Part shown: positions 7,585 through 17,200 of the stretch, piece by piece
How the letters are laid out: every line of letters starts with the position of its first letter
Numbering within the stretch: the stretch's first letter is position 1
IMG/VR virus record: IMGVR_UViG_3300043436_001747
Location: 1 to 31,614 of that record
Reading direction: 5' to 3' (one strand)
Source of the DNA: a virus
Length of the DNA stretch: 31,614 nucleotides
Notes under the pieces: model-generated
What the model saw: the letters and a program-made list of their open reading frames with translations, nothing else
Database searches by the model: none
What the model was told of the DNA's origin: nothing
Program-made: the position numbers and the translations under genes

Positions 7585-8181
7585 TTAAACGCCACCAAAT
7601 TTAAGGTCAGACGAAGATGGAAGCGAGAACATATTTGCTTTTTTAGATGCCGCTCCCGCGCCTTGGTTTACAAGACCTGTTAAAGCGGGATTTACAGAGG
7701 TTGTAGGTGCATTAGAATATGTTGATGGCAGCATTCCCGCTGCTGCACCAAGATTTGCGAGTGCTTCTTCACGCGATTTGTTGAAATCAAATCCACCGCC
7801 AGTTGCTTGTTGTCCAGCGGTTGCTTGTGCTTGCTGTGATGCAAGAAGTGCGTTGGCATCGCGGATGGACTGCATTGAACCTATTGTTGCAAGTTCTTGA
7901 CGAGCCGCTTGCTCTGCTTGCTGTTGGCGTTGCGTTCCGGCAGTAATTTGCGATTGCTTTAATGCTTCTTCTTGAGCTTTTTGTGCAGCAGCAGCTTGAG
8001 CGGCTTGCTGTGCTTGCATTTGAGACAAAAATTCCATTGTTGGATCAACTGGTGTTCCTCCATCGCCGCCACCTTTTTTACTTTTAGTTTTTGTTCCAAA
8101 AATAGCTTGCCGTCCATAATAACCAACAGGATTCAAAAATTTATATGGTGAATTTTTTGAAACCTTTAATGATCCACCCAT
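7585..8181 (-). CDS. Small Gln/Ala-rich virion protein, second copy of a pair
   Basis: 198 residues, beginning MGG and rich in Gln and Ala. It starts one base after the TAA of its neighbour (TAATATG). The end of the upstream gene supplies GGAGGA about 9 bases before this ATG, one of the few Shine-Dalgarno-like sequences in the window. It shares a plan with the upstream 162-residue protein: a basic or polar N-terminus, a V-D-P motif followed by a Gln-rich helix, an AAR segment, a glycine-rich linker, and a C-terminus of the form NMF-S-[LV]-P...FGG[AV]. I read the two as diverged tandem paralogues. The position between internal-virion-like genes suggests a small structural or ejection protein. 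No enzymatic motif is visible and the exact role is unknown. Confidence 0.7.
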   Translation of the reverse strand: MGGSLKVSKNSPYKFLNPVGYYGRQAIFGTKTKSKKGGGDGGTPVDPTMEFLSQMQAQQAAQAAAAQKAQEEALKQSQITAGTQRQQQAEQAARQELATIGSMQSIRDANALLASQQAQATAGQQATGGGFDFNKSREEALANLGAAAGMLPSTYSNAPTTSVNPALTGLVNQGAGAASKKANMFSLPSSSDLKFGGV

Positions 8182-8182
8182 A

Positions 8183-8671
8183 TTATGCTCCTCCGAAAGT
8201 TAAACCAGTTGTAGTTGGAACGGAGAACATATTTGAGCGTTGCTGTGTTCCACCTGCGCCAGCATTTGCTGCCATTGCTGCCGCTCCTTGTTGTCCTCCC
8301 ATTGTTCCAAGAGATGCTTGACGATACTGACCAGCATCACCAACAGGAGATGGCGTTGCTCCTCCAACTGGAGCAGATGCCTTTTGTGCAGCAGCCATAG
8401 TAGCTTGGTCTTGCGCTTGCTGACCAACATTCATTCCACTCAATGCGCTTCGTGCAGCAGCTTCGCCTTGTTGTTGAGCTTGCATTCCCGCCTGTTGTTG
8501 CGCTTGAATTTGAGCCTGCCTTTGGCGTTCAGCTTCAGCGGCAGCTTGTGATTCTGCCATTGACGCTTGCTGCTGTTGCTGCATAGCCATAAATGCAATC
8601 ATTGGATCAACTCCAGAAGGCTGTTGTTGTTGCTGTTGTTGCTGTTTAGGTTGTGATCGTCTTCCACCCAT
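8183..8671 (-). CDS. Small poly-Gln/Ala-rich virion protein, first copy of a pair
   Basis: 162 residues, beginning MGGRRSQPK and then eight consecutive Gln residues, followed by a Gln/Ala/Met-rich helix and a Gly/Ala-rich second half. It ends SNMFSVPTTTGLTFGGA, matching the end of the next gene (NMFSLPSSSDLKFGGV), so the two are probably tandem paralogues. It follows the YkgJ-like gene after a 35-base A/T-rich gap with no Shine-Dalgarno sequence. Low complexity makes a homology-based name unsafe. The composition resembles small internal or head-tail proteins of podoviruses, and a virion role is inferred from context only. The CAA/CAG tract that encodes the poly-Gln could vary in length by replication slippage. 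Confidence 0.7.
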   Translation of the reverse strand: MGGRRSQPKQQQQQQQQPSGVDPMIAFMAMQQQQQASMAESQAAAEAERQRQAQIQAQQQAGMQAQQQGEAAARSALSGMNVGQQAQDQATMAAAQKASAPVGGATPSPVGDAGQYRQASLGTMGGQQGAAAMAANAGAGGTQQRSNMFSVPTTTGLTFGGA

Positions 8672-8706: not shown

Positions 8707-9003
8707 TTAACTTTGTTCAAGAACTTTTTTGCGAGCTTCTCTGCAAAGATCACTGCCGGGTTCAAATTGCCTGCAAGAATTTGGTCTGTCATTGTAAACC
8801 TTACAACAAACAGATTGACCAACTTTTCCTTCAAGAGCAATGCAGCGATTGTCAATTGTTTTCATCAGTGGATAATCTGTTCTGACCATTTCATTAGGTA
8901 TGTTTATTGCGTCTGATCGATCTCGTTTTAAGACAGGCCATGACCATTTAAAACAACAACAAGCACCGCATAATTTGCAGTCAAATTCATCTATTTGTTC
9001 CAT
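8707..9003 (-). CDS. YkgJ-like cysteine-cluster protein
   Basis: 98 residues with the cysteine pattern of the YkgJ/UPF0153 family: C9, C12, C15, C16 and C17 in a CKLCGACCC segment, then C54, C66 and C67, an RP pair (73-74) followed by C77, and C87 after an EPGSD segment. The family is annotated as metal- or Fe-S-binding and its reaction is poorly known. The ATG at 9003 lies inside the 3' end of the PP-loop gene (13-base overlap), so the two are translated as a coupled pair, which suggests a shared function. The pair is unusual inside a block of virion genes and is best regarded as an accessory (moron-like) unit. The family assignment is strong; what it modifies is unknown. Confidence 0.85.
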   Translation of the reverse strand: MEQIDEFDCKLCGACCCFKWSWPVLKRDRSDAINIPNEMVRTDYPLMKTIDNRCIALEGKVGQSVCCKVYNDRPNSCRQFEPGSDLCREARKKVLEQS

Positions 9004-9827
9004 GTAACAGGACGAAAACCAAGGTCATCATTAACCAAATCTTCGTATGGCACAAGGTGAGAAATGTTTGATATTTTAGCCTTTAATTTTGGACAATCAA
9101 CATACTTTCCTTCATGCCTGTTTACGCAGTTGAAGCAAATAGGATAGAAGTCTGCATTAAGCGACTTGTCGGGATTGTTTTTCCATTTGTGGTAATCTTT
9201 CACATACCTTGTCGGGTCTGGCTGAACTCCGTTGTCTTCCAGATACTGAAAAATATCGTCATCAGTCCAATCTCGCATTGGATACAATGACATTGGCGAA
9301 TTGTCCGCATAGCGAATATCAACTGCAAGCGGAACATGACCCTTAATCAAATCTGTGTCGCTATACTTGGTTCCAATATACACTGCTCCCCAAGGCCAAT
9401 TAAACGTGCCTGTAGGACGCTGTAGAACATCAGTAACGCCACACAAGAAATCCTCGCTTTCCTTTGGTCTTTCAGTCCCAAGAGAAAGACACACGGCAGT
9501 TCCTTGACCCCATTGATAGTATTTGATGAAATCAAAACGCAACTCGCCAGTCTCAACATCAGGCCCATCCGCAATCGCTATTTTGCTTGGAGCGTAATCG
9601 TAGACCTCAAGTTTCCACTCTTTAATCAAACGATCCGAATAAGCGTATCGTTCACGCAACTTTGGTTCACGATACTGGATGACAGGAAGATCAATTCCTG
9701 CTCCAAACTTGATCAAATGCAGCAGTGCCGTGGAGTCTTTACCTCCACTCCACAAAACCACTGCTCTGGGCCACCTTTTGTTCCATTCTTTGATTTTATG
9801 TATTGTTGTATCTATTAGTTGTTTCAT
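8991..9827 (-). CDS. PP-loop ATPase of the PAPS reductase/sulfurtransferase type
   Basis: 278 residues. SGGKDS at 27-32 is the PP-loop that adenylates substrates in PAPS reductases, ATP sulfurylase small subunits and related thiolation enzymes. A YPMRDWTDDDIFQYL segment (182-196) is also typical of the superfamily. Near the C-terminus C231-x-x-C234 and C245 may bind a metal or Fe-S cluster, which fits phage and DndC-like members more than a plain sulfate-assimilation enzyme. The start codon overlaps the preceding stop (TAATG), and the end overlaps the YkgJ-like gene by 13 bases. The likely chemistry is ATP-dependent transfer of sulfur or activation of a nucleic acid or small molecule. True PAPS reductase activity is possible but not shown. 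The partner protein with many cysteines supports sulfur or metal chemistry. Confidence 0.88.
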   Translation of the reverse strand: MKQLIDTTIHKIKEWNKRWPRAVVLWSGGKDSTALLHLIKFGAGIDLPVIQYREPKLRERYAYSDRLIKEWKLEVYDYAPSKIAIADGPDVETGELRFDFIKYYQWGQGTAVCLSLGTERPKESEDFLCGVTDVLQRPTGTFNWPWGAVYIGTKYSDTDLIKGHVPLAVDIRYADNSPMSLYPMRDWTDDDIFQYLEDNGVQPDPTRYVKDYHKWKNNPDKSLNADFYPICFNCVNRHEGKYVDCPKLKAKISNISHLVPYEDLVNDDLGFRPVTWNK

Positions 9828-10618
9828 TAAATAATAATTGCTACACCTGCCAATGCGCCAATTGCCGCTCCTCCAGTTGAAAGCATTTGACCTTGTTGCG
9901 CGTTTGCGCTAGCGGCATTTTGTTGAGCATTTTGAAGCATCATTTGCTCATAATTTTGTTGACTTTGCTGTTGATTTTGATTGATTTTTTGAAGTTGCCC
10001 GAGGTTAGAATTAATCCAATCTGTTGTCGATTGATTAAGTTGTTGCGCTCCTTGCATGACATTGCCTTGGTATTGTTGCATCGCAGCAAGATTTTGCTGT
10101 TTTGCAGCTTGCTCGGCAGCAATAATAGACGCTGGATCAAGACCGCCAATTGGAGCGGGAGTTTGAGCAAGGTATCCTTGTTGAATTGCGAGATTTTGCA
10201 ACCTTGCCTGCCTTCCAGCTTCTGTTGCTTGATCGTAAACGGCAGACCTGCCAATCAAGCTATCAGTTCCAAGTCCAGATTGGTTCATCAATCCTTTTTT
10301 GACCGCCCAATTGTCCATCCAAGTCTTTGTTGCATCCAAGTTAGTCGCCTCTGCAACTTTAGAACCAAGTTCATCGCGCATCTTGGAAATCTCTGGATTT
10401 AGCAACCGATCAAATTCCTTTGAACGCTGCAAATTGTCCATTCCAAACTCTGCCGCTTGCTGTGAAGTTTTTGCAGCATCAAAAGACTGCATTAATGGAG
10501 CTTGAGACGAGTATGATTTAAGAAGATTTGCTTGATTTTGCAACATCGCAAGTTGTCCTTGCGATTGAATACCTAAACCTTGAAGTGCTACCGTGGAGTT
10601 TGGTTTTTGGTATGCCAT
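9827..10618 (-). CDS. Gln/Ala-rich internal-virion-like protein, second copy of a pair
   Basis: 263 residues from ATG at 10618, which follows the upstream stop as TAATATG. An ATG at 10648 would add ten residues inside the neighbour, but the tight junction repeated across the window favours 10618. The protein is helical and Gln-rich and aligns along its length with the upstream 304-residue protein: both have an x-LGM/FGM-x-N-[LV]-QRS-[KR]-E segment, a W-x-x-x-x-GL segment, a TxIGxxAxYD-like segment, a P-[IV]-GG-[LI]-DP motif, an AAK-x-x-NL-x-A-[ML]-Q segment and an N-Q-S motif. A hydrophobic Gly/Ala stretch closes the C-terminus and could insert into membrane. An internal core or ejection function is inferred from composition and position before the polyvalent gene. 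Confidence 0.75.
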   Translation of the reverse strand: MAYQKPNSTVALQGLGIQSQGQLAMLQNQANLLKSYSSQAPLMQSFDAAKTSQQAAEFGMDNLQRSKEFDRLLNPEISKMRDELGSKVAEATNLDATKTWMDNWAVKKGLMNQSGLGTDSLIGRSAVYDQATEAGRQARLQNLAIQQGYLAQTPAPIGGLDPASIIAAEQAAKQQNLAAMQQYQGNVMQGAQQLNQSTTDWINSNLGQLQKINQNQQQSQQNYEQMMLQNAQQNAASANAQQGQMLSTGGAAIGALAGVAIII

Positions 10619-10619
10619 A

Positions 10620-11534
10620 TTATACAGCAATTGCTTTGGGAACCGCATTCATTTTGTATTGATATTCTCCAGCGGGATTTGTCCCCATACTTGCCGCTCC
10701 AGCACCTTTTGCCATTGAGCCATATCCTTGTGCCGCTCCACTAACAATATTTCCTGCCGCTTGAGCATATGCGCCAGTCATCGCTCTGTCTGCTGCAAGA
10801 TTTTGAGCTTGTTGCCCAAGCAATGCGCCTTGGTAATTCAATTTGTTTTGCATCGCGTTTTGTTGCAAATTTTGGAAGTTTGCTCCAGCTTGCGCCATTT
10901 GATCAGAGACAGATTGATTAAATCCTCCAATGTTTCCATACATAGCATTCTGCCAGTTTTGAAGTGCTTGCAAGTTAGATGCTTTTGCCGCTTCTTGAGC
11001 GGAAATTGATGTAGATGGATCAATGCCCCCAACTGGAGCTTGCATTTGACGAAGAATTTCTTGCTGCAATGCAAGGTTTTGCTGATCGTAGTTAGCTTTT
11101 GCTTTCAATGCAGCATCGTATGTTGCAGCTTGCCCAATTGTAGAATCTCCAAGCCCTGTTTCGTATCCTTGAATAAGTCCTTGGTTACGCGCCCATTCGT
11201 TCATGTATTGTGCTGCGTTATCCATGCTGGCAAGGCGAGCAAGTTCCGCACCTTGAGCTTGTCGCATTTGCGCTGCTTCTGGAGAAACCATTTGCTCTAA
11301 TTCGCGTGAACGTTGAACATTGGCCATTCCAAGTTGTGCAAGTCGTTTTGATTCAGCGGCAGCATCATACTCTTGCTGTGCTGGAGCCATTCTTGCATAA
11401 GCATCAAGCAATTGAGCTTGCGTTGCTTGTTGCTGTGTTTGGGCTTGCTGCATGGCAAGCATAATAGCCAAATCCCGCGAGGAATCTGGTTTTGTCAAAT
11501 ACTTTTTAGCATCAACTTTTTTTGCGCCACCCAT
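10620..11534 (-). CDS. Gln/Ala-rich internal-virion-like protein, first copy of a pair
   Basis: 304 residues starting MGGAKKVDAKK, two bases after the preceding TAA. It is a Gln/Ala-rich helical protein with a Gly/Ala-rich, weakly hydrophobic C-terminal region (about 255-285). It shares its order of motifs with the next gene: an LGMANVQRSRELEQM segment, a WARNQGL segment, a GDSTIGQAATYDAAL segment and APVGGIDPSTS, so the two are tandem paralogues. The MGG start is shared with the two small Gln-rich proteins downstream. No enzymatic motif is seen. I infer an internal virion or DNA-ejection role, by analogy with podovirus core proteins that follow the nozzle gene. Confidence 0.75.
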   Translation of the reverse strand: MGGAKKVDAKKYLTKPDSSRDLAIMLAMQQAQTQQQATQAQLLDAYARMAPAQQEYDAAAESKRLAQLGMANVQRSRELEQMVSPEAAQMRQAQGAELARLASMDNAAQYMNEWARNQGLIQGYETGLGDSTIGQAATYDAALKAKANYDQQNLALQQEILRQMQAPVGGIDPSTSISAQEAAKASNLQALQNWQNAMYGNIGGFNQSVSDQMAQAGANFQNLQQNAMQNKLNYQGALLGQQAQNLAADRAMTGAYAQAAGNIVSGAAQGYGSMAKGAGAASMGTNPAGEYQYKMNAVPKAIAV

Positions 11535-11536
11535 GA

Positions 11537-11923
11537 TTAAAAATTAGTCATACTATAAATTTCACGATCTGTTTTTGTCAAACCTAATTTATTCATAATT
11601 TCATTGCTAAAATTAGGCCGATCATTGACTAGTGGAACTCCAATGTATCCGGGTTGTCCAGAAAGTTGCGAATGCGCCTTCCAATCGCTCATCACTTGGA
11701 TCACATCTTGTGGTCGCGTGTGTTGTGGGTGAAAGGCAGGATAGACGACAGGAAGAAATACATGATCAGAATATCCAAATAACTTGCCATTAGAATAATG
11801 CGCGTAAACATTGATATTCGGGTGTTCGATGATTTCATGGTCAAATTCTTGAGCGAAATCTTGTAATTCATAGAATTCGTTTGATCCATGCCTTGCATAT
11901 TTATATTCAATTCTTGTTCTCAT
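11537..11923 (-). CDS. Conserved-looking phage protein of unknown function
   Basis: 128 residues with no low-complexity sequence. The N-terminal half is rich in aromatic, His and acidic residues. The middle has a striking segment, FLPVVYPAFHPQHTRP (about residues 56-71), then a DWKAHSQL...PGYIGVPL stretch and an ordinary polar C-terminus. It starts after TAG plus eight A/T bases and is followed by the first Gln/Ala-rich virion gene. The sequence looks like a compact globular protein under constraint, but I cannot tie it to a characterised family. Its place between the nozzle and internal-virion genes suggests a virion or assembly function. Confidence 0.65.
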   Translation of the reverse strand: MRTRIEYKYARHGSNEFYELQDFAQEFDHEIIEHPNINVYAHYSNGKLFGYSDHVFLPVVYPAFHPQHTRPQDVIQVMSDWKAHSQLSGQPGYIGVPLVNDRPNFSNEIMNKLGLTKTDREIYSMTNF

Positions 11924-11931
11924 ATATTTAT

Positions 11932-12186
11932 CTAATTAGTTCCAACCACAACTTCGTTTCCGCTCAATTCAGTTGGCAAGTATCCTTTAAATCTTTCTGC
12001 TTGCTGCTGAATAACCTTGTTCCGTGTGGAAAAGTTACCACAAACAACGCAAGGCAGGCAATTTTCAGCATCGATTGGAATTGGAACAGAAGAATAGAGA
12101 GGCACAACTGGATCATCGCCGAATGGTGATACAAAGCGGTTTGGGAAGTTTGTAACTTTTACAGAAGCGTCAACGATGGATGGCAT
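11932..12186 (-). CDS. Small hypothetical protein with a Cys-x-x-Cys-x-x-Cys motif
   Basis: 84 residues, starting one base after the nozzle gene (TAATATG). The first half is rich in Val, Pro and Ser and probably beta-stranded. C43, C46 and C49 form CLPCVVC, which could bind a metal or form disulfides. The C-terminal half is helical and then ends in a short beta-like tail. I do not recognise the family. A small tail or head-tail protein is the simplest guess from position, with no direct support. Confidence 0.6.
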   Translation of the reverse strand: MPSIVDASVKVTNFPNRFVSPFGDDPVVPLYSSVPIPIDAENCLPCVVCGNFSTRNKVIQQQAERFKGYLPTELSGNEVVVGTN

Positions 12187-12187
12187 A

Positions 12188-14290
12188 TTAGCAAGGATTT
12201 AATATTCTATATTGATTTGCCGCTGCATTTGCGGCCTGTTCAGCAAGAATTCCAGCTTGTTCTTCTGCGTGAGTGAAAGAAATACTTGACAAGAACGATG
12301 CTGCTGCCGTTGCTGAAATTGATGACAAAGATGGACAAGTTAAAGTCACAGTTCGATAAACTTTAGCATACCAACTTTGCTGGTCTGTTTGAGGCACTTC
12401 ATACGGACTTGGTAGTAAATCAAGAGTCAATGTTGATCCATCTTGGGCAAGCAAACAAGATTGTTTTTCTTTTGAATTTGGAACACCAGTTGACCTTTCG
12501 CTCCACGGGTCTTGAAACATCCGAATTATCTCAACTCCTAACTCTCCACACCATTCAACGAGCATAGAAAAGCCCTTATCAATATCCGTTGTCAGATAGG
12601 ATTCGCACGTTTCAGCAGTTGCATTTCGAGTTGCAGATTCAGTAATCAAACGTCGATATTGCGTGTTTAGAAAACCGAACTTTTCAATTTCTGGAGCAAA
12701 TGGAGTGTCCTGCCACTGGTAGTCTTCAGTTACTGCTAAAATGCGCGTGTCAAGAATTGATTGATACTGCCCCTTGCTTCCTCGATATGATGCCTTGACA
12801 TCTGCCGTTCCTCCAATCTCACAACATTCTAGTTCTGCGTAAACAAATTGTTTGTAATCCATCCCATCACCAAGCAAAGGTGTTTCAACTTGCGAGTAAA
12901 TGCGATTGAATAGTTCAGTTGTTGTTCCATCCGCATTGATGCTCAAATATGAGTCAACTCGGTTTTGAGTAAATGATTCCCAAAGCGAAATGTAAGAACC
13001 ATCATTTGTTGCAGAGTAATCAACGGAGAAATGAAAACATCGAGGTTGTCCATCAACAATTCCTGTAGTCCACTCAACTGGTCTGCTGCCAGTCCATACA
13101 CCGCACCAAGCAGGTTGGCGCGATGATCCCATTTCCGCTGCAACTGCCCAATCCATGACCATTGTAGCTGAATTTAGTGGTTCAAGATACGGAATGCTAT
13201 AGAGTAAATAATTCTCAAATGATGTAGCGCAAATGCCAGTTTGGTTGCCTGCCATGTATGCTTTTGCTCGCACCATTTCGACATCTTTATACAATACCTG
13301 CGACGAAAGGTAAGCGTTGCCAGCAACGTCCGCTGATACAAGTCCACCTTGCGAAAACCACCACATTTGACCAGCTTGAAACGCGATGGACTTGCCAGCG
13401 ATGCAACCTACATTCGCAAACAAAATAGTTTGAAAATTAGGCGTTGTTCCCCATGCTGCCCTGTCGTAAATTCCGCTTGAAAGAGCATAGGTTTCACGAT
13501 CTGTGAATACATACAATTTCTGGTCGTTATTCTGACCTACATAGTTCACCAATGCCGTTACTGGTCGAGTAAATGAGAAGTCTCCTCGCCCTGATCCCGT
13601 TGTGCGTTCCTGCCAGCTTGTAGGATCGCCAAGATCAGACGCAAGAACGATGTTTTTGTTAGCAATCCAAAGTCGATTACCAGAATATGCCATCCAAAAA
13701 CCAATTGGTATGTCAGGGTCTTGCACTCCAGTAGTATTTGATCCATCCCAATACACAGGAGCGTTCACGCCATCTTGGATGAACAATACGCGATGCGAAG
13801 GTGTGACTGAAACATCACCGCCAGTCGAAATGTTTGCTGATTTGGTTGCCAATGTGAAACAAAATTGTGAAACATTTGGATCAAGCGAAACATTGGTAAG
13901 TTGGAATGGTTTCCAATCTTTAGGTTGCGTTAATGGGAATGGACTCCAATAAACCTTGCCGTTTACAGCAAATACAATGTATGGCAACTCATCCGCTTCA
14001 ACTCCTTCGCCATTTGTTCCGTAAATTTGCGTAGATGTTGTAGCATCTGCTGCTTTGAATTGCTTGTTTGCAAGAAACAAAATTCCGCCTTGAAAATTGC
14101 CCGGAGGCAATGACAAACGCATGGATTGTCCCGGTCTTGTCTGCGCGATACCACCTCTAAATTGGCAATTTACTGCCCATTTAACTTGATTTTCTGGCAA
14201 TGCCCACGGATTACGAACAGAGTTTACGCCTTGAGTCCAACCAGCAGTTGTTTTTACTTGCCGTCCAGAAGTAATTTGAGGTGATTTCAT
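12188..14290 (-). CDS. Tail nozzle / tubular protein B-like, beta-propeller type
   Basis: 700 residues, starting one base after the adaptor gene (TAAAATG). The N-terminus has a W-T-x-G-V-N segment, an LPENQVKWAVNCQFRGG stretch and RPG, typical of phage tail-nozzle (T7 gp12-like) and stabilisation proteins that begin with a strand describing a propeller blade. The middle carries Trp- and Tyr-rich, beta-rich repeats, including NRLWIANKN, a KLYVFTDRETYALSSGIYD segment, GCIAGKS and a MWWFSQGGLVSAD stretch. Together with the adaptor immediately upstream this matches the adaptor-nozzle pair of podoviruses, which seals the portal and forms the lower tail tube. The C-terminus (about 660-700) is an Ala/Gln-rich helix. 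Assignment rests on motif pattern, size and gene order, not on an alignment. Confidence 0.78.
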   Translation of the reverse strand: MKSPQITSGRQVKTTAGWTQGVNSVRNPWALPENQVKWAVNCQFRGGIAQTRPGQSMRLSLPPGNFQGGILFLANKQFKAADATTSTQIYGTNGEGVEADELPYIVFAVNGKVYWSPFPLTQPKDWKPFQLTNVSLDPNVSQFCFTLATKSANISTGGDVSVTPSHRVLFIQDGVNAPVYWDGSNTTGVQDPDIPIGFWMAYSGNRLWIANKNIVLASDLGDPTSWQERTTGSGRGDFSFTRPVTALVNYVGQNNDQKLYVFTDRETYALSSGIYDRAAWGTTPNFQTILFANVGCIAGKSIAFQAGQMWWFSQGGLVSADVAGNAYLSSQVLYKDVEMVRAKAYMAGNQTGICATSFENYLLYSIPYLEPLNSATMVMDWAVAAEMGSSRQPAWCGVWTGSRPVEWTTGIVDGQPRCFHFSVDYSATNDGSYISLWESFTQNRVDSYLSINADGTTTELFNRIYSQVETPLLGDGMDYKQFVYAELECCEIGGTADVKASYRGSKGQYQSILDTRILAVTEDYQWQDTPFAPEIEKFGFLNTQYRRLITESATRNATAETCESYLTTDIDKGFSMLVEWCGELGVEIIRMFQDPWSERSTGVPNSKEKQSCLLAQDGSTLTLDLLPSPYEVPQTDQQSWYAKVYRTVTLTCPSLSSISATAAASFLSSISFTHAEEQAGILAEQAANAAANQYRILNPC

Positions 14291-14291
14291 T

Positions 14292-17200
14292 TTACCACAT
14301 TACAGGGTCAGCTCCATCTCCTTCCGCATAACAAACGGAATTAATTTGAGGAACTGCCATAGCATGACCATCAATTGATTCTTGTTGATTTTTGAGGTAT
14401 CCAAACGCAATCTGCCAGTAGCGCATAGCTTGATCTGCAAAATCCTTGTCTTCCAAGTCAACTGCGTGAACAGCAGCAATAATGGCGCGTTCTTGCTCAA
14501 GCGGAATATAATCATACACGCTTGTAATGCTTGGATTAGTCACCTTGTAAATAATCCTTGCCCATGCACAAGGCTTGCCAATGCGGATCCTACGATACTG
14601 CGGATTGATTTCTGTTGGATGATACTGACCGATTAGCGTCATGTCATTGCTGCGTCCGTAGTCCCATGCGTAAAGGCTAACGTATCCATCCGTAAGAGGT
14701 TTTTCAATGTGTGCAACGCTCTTAACAAAGATTGGATCGGAAATTGCGTCAACAAAAAATGTGGATGACACAGAATTTCCAGTCGTTGTGTATGTCCTGC
14801 GTCCAGTTGTGGATGTCAAGTTACGCGAATTGGCAAGCGTGTCGTAAAGCTCGAAAGAATTGTTATCAATCCGACGAACATAGTAATTCGTTCCAGAAAC
14901 CAATCCAATTGGCAATGTGTCGCCTTCTTTTGCGCGAGCTACAAGCAGCGTTCCTGTCTCGTAGAGCGATGAATCAGCAACAATGTTGTTAGATGGTTGA
15001 ACTGTAACATTGCGGATAATGTCAAGGCTCAACTGACCATTTCCTGTGGATGTCAAAACAACTAGAGACGCGCCATTATAAACGCGCACAGAGTCACCAA
15101 TAATTTTGATCGTGTAATTGGTCAATGCAACCAAAGGAGTTGGCAATGTTCCAGATGAGCTAAATTGAACAACTTGATCTTCAGTCAAGAAAGCAGTATT
15201 TACAGGCTTAATCAGATTTGAGTCAACAGATGGAGAAACCTGCGTCCGAATAGCGTAATATGTTTGACCAGTTCCGAAAGAATCAATGTTGATAAGCGTT
15301 GTTAGTCCAACATTTGAATATGCTTTTGCAAGCGTATTTGATGCAACACTCAAATAAAATGGAGTTACACTATTATCAATTGCAGGAGATGTCGTTGGAA
15401 GGATATAATCAGTTCCAAAATAAATTTGTTGTCCACTTGTCAAACTTGTAAAATCACCCAACCAATTATTTGTGAAATCAACTCCAAATGCTCGTGAAAG
15501 AACAACATAAAATGTTCCTGTTCCAGCAGAAGTAATGTTTACATCACTAAAATCTGTGTTTTGAACAGTAAATGTTCCAGTAACACCATTAAGCGGAGTT
15601 TCTGCACGATATGCAGTTCCAGAAACAAGAGGTGATGGCAATGTGCCTGTAGATGAAAAATTTACAAATACACCAGTTGACGGACTTAATGTTATGTTTG
15701 GATTTGAGGAATACCCTGTTCCTGTAGTAACAACGTTAAGTTGCGTTACTTGACCAGTTAGCGAATCAACAACAGCAGTTGCTGTTGCCCCAGTTCCTCC
15801 ACCACCAGTAATTTTTACCTCTGGAGGATCAATGTATCCAGAACCTCCATTTATCTTATTAAATCCAGCAATAAATGTTGTTGTAATTGTTGCAACAGCA
15901 ACCGCTGCTCCCGATCCAAATGTAATTGATGGTGCTGTTTGATAGCCAAATCCTGCATCTGTAATAACAACATTTGTAACAACTCCAGATACAATTATTG
16001 CATATCCAGTTGCTTGTCTAACTACAATTGTGCTTCCAGAAGGTGGGTCTGGAGGCAATGAAAAAGTTACATCTGGAGCAACTGCATAACCAGAACCTCC
16101 GCTTGTAATTCTAACAGATGTTACAGAACCAACTCGTATGGCTTGGAATTGCGCTCCAGAACCAGATGGAGTTGCAATATTAAGTCCCGGCGCGGTAATT
16201 TGACTTTCTGTGCCTACTTTTGATGTGGCTTGAATTAGCTTGACAAGCGAGTTTGTTCCCGATCCAGAAGTTGTAATCTTGATTGGATTCACGAAGTTTG
16301 TCGGAGTTGATGCAGCAGCATCAGCTTGGTTTTCGTGCAATGACACTGAAAAATTATCAATGACATTTACAAAGTAATTCTGATTTGCAATGAGCGGTTG
16401 TGGCAATACGCCTCCAGCAGTAAATGCCTGCACTTGGTCGCCATCGCTGAAGTAATGCCGAACGCTGAAAACAAGTTTTGTCTCTGGAACAATTGCTTTG
16501 CGAATATCAATGTCAATTGGCGACATTGAACCTGTTGTGTAAATTGGATTGCTATTACTCTTCGCATCAGAAAGCGAACTAAAGATGTTCAAATTCAGCG
16601 AATCTATCGGTTGTGCAAAGTATGTTTTCTTTTGTTCTAATGGCGCAGGAAGCGGCAATGTTGGAAAAACAACCTCGTTAGGCGAGTCAATTGCAAACGA
16701 TGGAGCAGATGCAAATTCCAACGAAGTTACAACTTGAGCATTACGCTGGTCGCGCAATTGCATTGAACCAAATCCAACTATGCTTGAAAGCGCGATTGGG
16801 TATTGCAATGCTTCAGCGTTTAGCGAATCGCTGAAAAGCTGGACTGTAACTGCGTCAATAACTCCAACATAATATGTTTGCCCATCGTTTAGCGGCACTG
16901 GAATTGTGCCTGTAAGCACCCTTGCAGACATTCCTTGACCAGATGTCAATCCATGTGGAGTTGTTGTTGTGAAATCAGTAATTGGATCAATGGCAACATT
17001 ACGGGTCGCAATCGTTGCATCATCTGGCGCAATAGTTCCATATTGGAAATCTTGCTGCGAGTGAATTGGAATGAGAAGACCATCCACTCCCATTCCGTTT
17101 GGCATTTGCGAGCGAAGATTGCGATTGTTTTGATCGGTTCCAAGAACGCGAATTTTCTTGCCAACATCATTGTTGCTTTCAGCAACCGCAATAAGTTGCG

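Follow-up and report, generated by a model that had tools for sequence, protein, structure and literature searches.

Introduction

In the sulfate-assimilation enzyme CysH, a catalytic cysteine located in a C-terminal ECGLH motif is required. The combination of a PP-loop and an Fe-S cluster is typical of tRNA thiolases, and DndC, of the DNA phosphorothioation pathway, is a PP-loop Fe-S protein as well. Viral genes labelled cysH are usually annotated, and often counted, as auxiliary metabolic genes (AMGs) of the sulfur cycle. For example, a survey of freshwater phages counts 167 cysH genes as AMGs for sulfate assimilation (PMC10914622). Other described systems act on peptides or proteins. CtaC is an Fe-S PP-loop enzyme that has been reconstituted as a thioamide synthetase acting on the peptide backbone (PMC6772006), YcaO together with TfuA thioamidates peptides (PMC5589413, PMC8120280), and in the protein-modifying enzyme FliB a CX4CX3CC motif has been shown to hold a [4Fe-4S] cluster (PMC8598068). 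In the cultured Burkholderia phages BcepIL02 and JC1, of the genus Lessievirus, the genes for an acyltransferase, a virion protein, a PAPS-reductase-like protein and further virion proteins follow each other in this order. The JC1 paper describes the genes of this cassette as moron genes.

The sequence analysed here, which we refer to as the window, is a viral record 31,614 bases long. According to the original prediction, it encodes a PP-loop protein (PP) with an SGGKDS motif and a Cys-x-x-Cys pair, whose gene overlaps by 13 bases that of a cysteine-rich, YkgJ-like protein. The ORFs and the Pfam matches confirm this. The comparative evidence suggests that the function of the pair is to modify the tail of an injected protein and lies outside sulfur metabolism.

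Results

Organization of the locus

The PP gene (8991..9827, minus strand) encodes a 278-aa protein assigned to the PP-loop (AANH) superfamily, PAPS_reduct-like, on the basis of its ORF, its Pfam match and its invariant residues. The YkgJ gene (8707..9003, minus strand) shares 13 bases with it (8991-9003) and encodes a small protein of 98 aa of the YkgJ family (PF03692) with a CX2CX2CC motif, which its ORF, its Pfam match and the FliB precedent (PMC8598068) make a putative [4Fe-4S]/metal partner. Immediately 5' of the PP gene lies the gene of an ejection protein (9827..10618, minus strand), the candidate substrate, which was assigned through its homologues and the presence in the virion of JC1 gp64, its positional equivalent. 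Its start was placed at an internal Met, as in the homologues, within a longest ORF that begins at 10648. In TAATG (9829-9825) the stop codon of this gene and the start codon of PP overlap, so that the ejection gene, PP and YkgJ look translationally coupled.

The ejection gene is preceded by one for a paralogous ejection-type protein (10620..11534, minus strand; MGGAKKV...), which lacks the hydrophobic tail described below. Downstream of YkgJ, the sequence shows two genes for virion-block proteins, both on the minus strand and both with an MGG start, of which one (8183..8671) ends in NMFSVP...FGGA and the other (7585..8181) in NMFSLP...FGGV. The cysteine pair had been placed between two pairs of duplicated virion genes. 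Duplication is clear for the upstream two (38% identity, E=9e-43), but the downstream two are only weakly alike (31%, E=0.002), so that the second pair is not certain. A family match assigns 12188-14290 to an internal virion protein. An MGG[SAGRN] start is common to many virion-block proteins of the clade (in the window, those of 7585-8181, 8183-8671 and 10620-11534; in L077, those in the region 8855-17000), and several of them end in [NQ].F.[LMV]P....FGG[AVS]. This N- and C-terminal signature, shared by otherwise diverged proteins, is possibly an assembly or processing signal.

Upstream of the ejection genes lies a gene for a 128-aa protein (11537..11923, minus strand; FGYSDHV..P..YPAFHP), recognized by its conservation and matching no family. 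It is strongly conserved at this position in the clade, with or without PP, and occupies the place of the BcepIL02/JC1 acyltransferase. A GNAT identity was considered and is unsupported, as profile comparison with the BcepIL02 acyltransferase gave a probability of 3.8%. No tRNA genes were found in the window or in its 65-kb relative G001. Two further genes of G001 may be mentioned here. One encodes a CHAP-domain endolysin with an apparent intein-like interruption that has a LAGLIDADG match (L191, 3499-4953; CFDESVETLT...). The other matches Erv1/Alr sulfhydryl oxidases (L192, 14010-14636; E=1.4e-8) with CPC replacing the CxxC active site; it was considered as a thiol partner and rejected, since it lies apart and has CxC instead of CxxC.

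The PP protein lacks the catalytic motif of CysH

The SGGKDS motif of PP spans residues 27-32, and the Cys-x-x-Cys pair is C231-x2-C234. The protein matches PF01507 (PAPS_reduct) with E=3.5e-6 and 27.6 bits, against a curated cut-off of 22.5, and its family labels include phrog_424/phrog_2302 "PAPS reductase". Relatives are encoded on 119 viral stretches. SGGKDS is kept in 168 of 168 PP proteins, and C129, C231, C234 and C245 are invariant in relatives down to 35% identity. The dN/dS of PP (0.02-0.05) is the lowest among the genes compared, which indicates strong constraint. The catalytic motif EC[GA][LIM]H, however, is present in none of the 168 window-type and none of the 72 BcepIL02-type PP proteins.

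Judged by its sequence, the cysteine order of PP (C...CxxC...C) is APS-reductase-like rather than CtaC/TtcA-like, in a part where the structure model is weak. The model as a whole is moderate (pLDDT 70). Its fold matches include TtuA (Z 13.9), with FAD synthase, CysD and PAPS reductase at similar values of up to 15.1, and NcsA (Z 11.0). Such similar scores across PP-loop families fix the superfamily, not the function.

PP and YkgJ travel together

The YkgJ-like protein matches PF03692 with E=3.9e-7 and 31.1 bits (curated cut-off, 23). It had been credited with about ten conserved cysteines; ten are indeed present, of which eight are invariant among 20 relatives. The CX2CX2CC motif (C..CGACC) is kept in all 157 YkgJ proteins, and 68 viral stretches encode relatives. 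Profile searches found no relatives in the PDB, the AlphaFold model is unusable (pLDDT 42), and FliB was the one informative case in the literature on YkgJ function.

The proposal that the two genes travel together in other phages was borne out. Of the 98 distinct PP genes of homologous phage loci, 94 are followed by YkgJ within 1.6 kb (91 by script, plus L181-L183, where YkgJ overlaps PP more), and the pair persists just after an ejection-type gene at 55% (L143) and 35% (L144) PP identity. Together with the dN/dS of PP, the 119 and 68 viral stretches with relatives put the pair far beyond chance. The pairwise distances among PP proteins are correlated with those among YkgJ proteins (Mantel r=0.68, 0/999 permutations), which shows co-inheritance; physical interaction does not follow from such a correlation itself. 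A tight overlap of the two genes is not required, since one subclade (L053-L142) has an extra MGGS/MGGA virion-type gene between them. L143 and L144 are contigs of Chthoniobacter and Proteobacteria MAGs, respectively, that look like phage sequence; as they carry the ejection cassette, they are probably mis-binned.

YkgJ is nevertheless missing from 6 of the 21 PP-containing loci in the set collected by the virion gene 12188-14290 (see below), and no YkgJ relative was found elsewhere in PP-only phages. In PP-containing phages that lack YkgJ, its place after PP is taken by a conserved protein of 70 aa (IHEFKSP..VVTP.GDGYLFYVQ; L278, 13370-13582; L321, 4317-4538).

The ejection protein upstream of PP ends in a hydrophobic tail

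The ejection protein encoded directly 5' of PP stops abruptly after a hydrophobic tail that is rich in Gly/Ala and free of charged residues. In the window its sequence is GGAAIGALAGVAIII (9830..9874, minus strand), which the tail comparisons make the proposed modification site; in BcepIL02, where the protein is gp66, it is GLGTIAGAGIMAF. A tail of this kind is present on the protein immediately upstream of PP at 126 of 126 window-type loci, and 74 of 75 BcepIL02-type loci have a hydrophobic-tailed protein ending at most 1.3 kb upstream of PP. Other nearby A/Q-rich proteins carry such a tail in 38 of 252 cases for the window type and in 0 of 81 for the BcepIL02 type.

To avoid ascertainment by PP, loci were also collected by the virion gene 12188-14290. 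Among the 44 of these with enough flank, PP is present in 21 and YkgJ in 15. In the combined set (loci collected by PP, YkgJ or this virion gene), and with any nearby ORF allowed, the tail was found at 71 of 76 PP-containing loci, at 0 of 13 enzyme-free loci and at 1 of 3 YcaO loci. On a tree of 65 rows from this set, on which PP changes six times, PP presence and the tail agree in 64 rows, and the sole disagreement (L308) carries YcaO. The tail criterion was chosen with the tails already in view, and the tree used a slightly looser version of it than the any-ORF test. Of four independent pairs, 3.8 agree in direction and none is opposed (p=0.125); with only four pairs, the sign test cannot reach significance.

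Relatives without an enzyme have the tail extended, fused or replaced. At the enzyme-free loci L289, L294, L296 and L297 the hydrophobic segment is kept, but further residues follow it at the C-terminus. The ejection proteins of the sister pair L327 (with PP) and L341 (without PP) are 82% identical and differ in the last ~20 residues; no PAPS_reduct match exists anywhere in the 61-kb record of L341.

YcaO and TfuA occupy the same slot in sister phages

At the loci L285, L293 and L308, YcaO and TfuA take the place of PP (for L285, PF02624 with E=5.5e-55 and PF07812 with E=3.1e-33). PF02624 is absent from the relatives G001-G004 and present in the sister phage G013. L308 has a free hydrophobic tail (...AAAAAVVAAL), whereas in its enzyme-free sister L312 the tail is buried by fusion with the next gene. 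TfuA is present at 22 of 23 viral YcaO loci. Where it could be resolved, the gene upstream of YcaO encodes an A/Q-rich, often MGG-starting virion-type protein. Of 14 distinct upstream tails, 12 have the motif Y[CL][KRQ].G close to the C-terminus and two are hydrophobic. YcaO lineages thus mostly follow a different tail, and the two enzyme types need not carry out the same chemistry.

A distant PP family in cultured Burkholderia phages

A tblastn search of cultured phages with P0001, P0002 and the L144 homologue gave no match, and cultured relatives were reached only via the JC1 paper. The PP proteins of the window and the Burkholderia type are homologous (profile probability 97%) and only about 25% alike; C129, C231 and C234 of the window protein are aligned with the CC and CxxC motifs of the Burkholderia proteins. 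The pattern CC-x60-110-CxxC is present in 72 of 72 distinct BcepIL02-type relatives in IMG/VR, and in none of these 72 does YkgJ lie directly downstream of PP. JC1 gp66 (99 aa), which takes the place of YkgJ, was considered as its counterpart and rejected because its translation shows no cysteine protein.

According to the JC1 paper, mass spectrometry detected the flanking gp64, gp67 and gp68 in the virion; gp65 (the PP protein), gp63 and gp66 are absent from the list. With gp65 missing from this list, PP looks like an enzyme of the maturation stage rather than a structural part.

Discussion

The main new finding is the position of the PP gene beside the gene of a hydrophobic-tailed ejection protein. 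Nearly all phage PP genes of the two types checked adjoin an ejection protein, and all lack the catalytic motif. The original prediction, which regarded sulfur or metal chemistry as unexpected inside an ejection-protein operon, holds for the coupling as well as for the oddness. Among the functions it offered, the coupling between tail and enzyme and the occurrence of YcaO-TfuA in the same slot favour virion-protein modification.

We consider it an even chance that PP-YkgJ serves the maturation of a virion protein, with the C-terminal tail of the neighbouring ejection protein as its target. For its activity, cluster, substrate and product, and for the role of YkgJ, we infer the following. The two genes would be expressed late, PP would bind ATP through SGGKDS and would hold a metal site, most likely Fe-S, on C129/C231/C234/C245. 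It would act on the Gly/Ala-rich hydrophobic C-terminal tail of the ejection protein whose gene directly precedes its own, most likely by ATP-dependent sulfur insertion (backbone thioamidation) or, alternatively, by an adenylation-based modification of the C-terminal carboxylate. YkgJ may be an optional Fe-S/metal accessory, standing to PP as TfuA stands to YcaO.

A very different function would follow from the family labels (PF01507 and the phrog_424/phrog_2302 "PAPS reductase" entries) and from the survey that counts 167 cysH genes among freshwater phages (PMC10914622), namely that PP is a CysH-type AMG for sulfate assimilation, and an auxiliary metabolic unit had also been among the predicted functions. 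The ECGLH motif is absent from all 168 window-type and all 72 BcepIL02-type proteins, and the partner that the PP genes keep is an ejection gene instead of other cys genes; we therefore reject this function as highly improbable. Phosphorothioation of phage DNA by a DndC/SspD-like system, or another role in defence or counter-defence, seems just as improbable. DndC is likewise a PP-loop Fe-S protein, but neither PP nor YkgJ matches a PADLOC family at E<=0.001. The cysteine desulfurase family (PF00266) is absent from six long phage records, while 14 of 14 control genomes were positive, so that no phosphorothioation pathway is visible in complete relatives, even though a host enzyme could serve; this function, too, was rejected. 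Thiolation of tRNA by PP and YkgJ late in infection, in a TtcA/TtuA-like manner and with the place in the operon reflecting expression timing only, is unlikely but deserves more weight than either of these. A PP-loop with Fe-S is typical of tRNA thiolases, and TtuA and NcsA are among the fold matches, although scores as high were obtained with FAD synthase, CysD and PAPS reductase. G001 has no tRNA genes, and the tail coupling, the constant place by one ejection gene and the replacement by YcaO-TfuA would be left unexplained.

The main rival to tail modification concerns the association itself. Because the tail physically adjoins the enzyme gene, recombination of blocks that join the 3' end of the ejection gene to its neighbour could give the same pattern, with PP-YkgJ as a moron that has an unrelated job. 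The changes within the sister pairs lie exactly at the border between tail and enzyme gene, and the independent-pairs test is underpowered. The same rule is found, however, in two PP families with a likeness of only about 25%, and the pattern recurs with YcaO, an enzyme unrelated to PP, which L308 has and its near-identical sister L312 lacks. Strong purifying selection and the fixed place also argue against a mere passenger. The two distant families and the unrelated enzyme make recombination less likely without removing it, and we regard it as rather improbable.

In many uncultured freshwater phages, two genes for predicted metal-binding enzymes lie among those of the injected proteins. More broadly, and with somewhat less confidence than for the window itself, podophages may use interchangeable peptide-modifying modules (a PP-loop Fe-S protein with or without YkgJ, or YcaO-TfuA) that mature the C-terminus of an ejection protein; RiPP-like tailoring such as thioamidation would be needed for passage through the envelope, and many phage cysH genes would belong here. 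If true, this would be, as far as we know, the first case of an ejection protein whose backbone or C-terminus is modified by phage-encoded enzymes, and a single genomic slot would hold two unrelated enzyme systems for the same job. Some of the viral cysH genes, at least, would then be virion-maturation enzymes, and the entry of podophage ejection proteins and their crossing of membranes would become open to chemical test. The prediction is testable in already cultured Burkholderia phages of the genus Lessievirus.

Among known systems, PP resembles PAPS/APS reductase (CysH, PF01507) in its PP-loop fold, SGGKDS motif and Pfam match, but ECGLH is absent throughout and the context is a virion operon. 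BcepIL02-type relatives keep the CC-x60-110-CxxC of Fe-S APS reductases, while window-type PP has a single C129 plus C231xxC234 and C245. CtaC of closthioamide biosynthesis, with which PP was compared by description, belongs to the same PP-loop/AANH superfamily, and its Fe-S-dependent and ATP-dependent sulfur insertion into a peptide backbone is the chemistry proposed for PP; it differs in its carrier-protein-bound substrates and TtcA-type cysteine order (PMC6772006). FliB, a flagellin lysine methyltransferase, shares with YkgJ a CX2CX2CC-like cysteine motif and acts on a protein (PMC8598068), but YkgJ, with only 98 aa, is roughly as large as the PF03692 domain by itself and shows no methyltransferase part. 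The BcepIL02 gp65-gp67 and JC1 gp63-gp65 cassettes have an acyltransferase, a hydrophobic-tailed virion protein and PP in the same order, but no YkgJ. YcaO-TfuA, finally, is likewise a two-gene unit of enzyme and accessory in the same slot after the ejection gene of sister phages, with an unrelated fold, unrelated genes and mostly another ejection-protein tail. The module of the window is therefore an analogue of YcaO-TfuA by position, not a member of that system.
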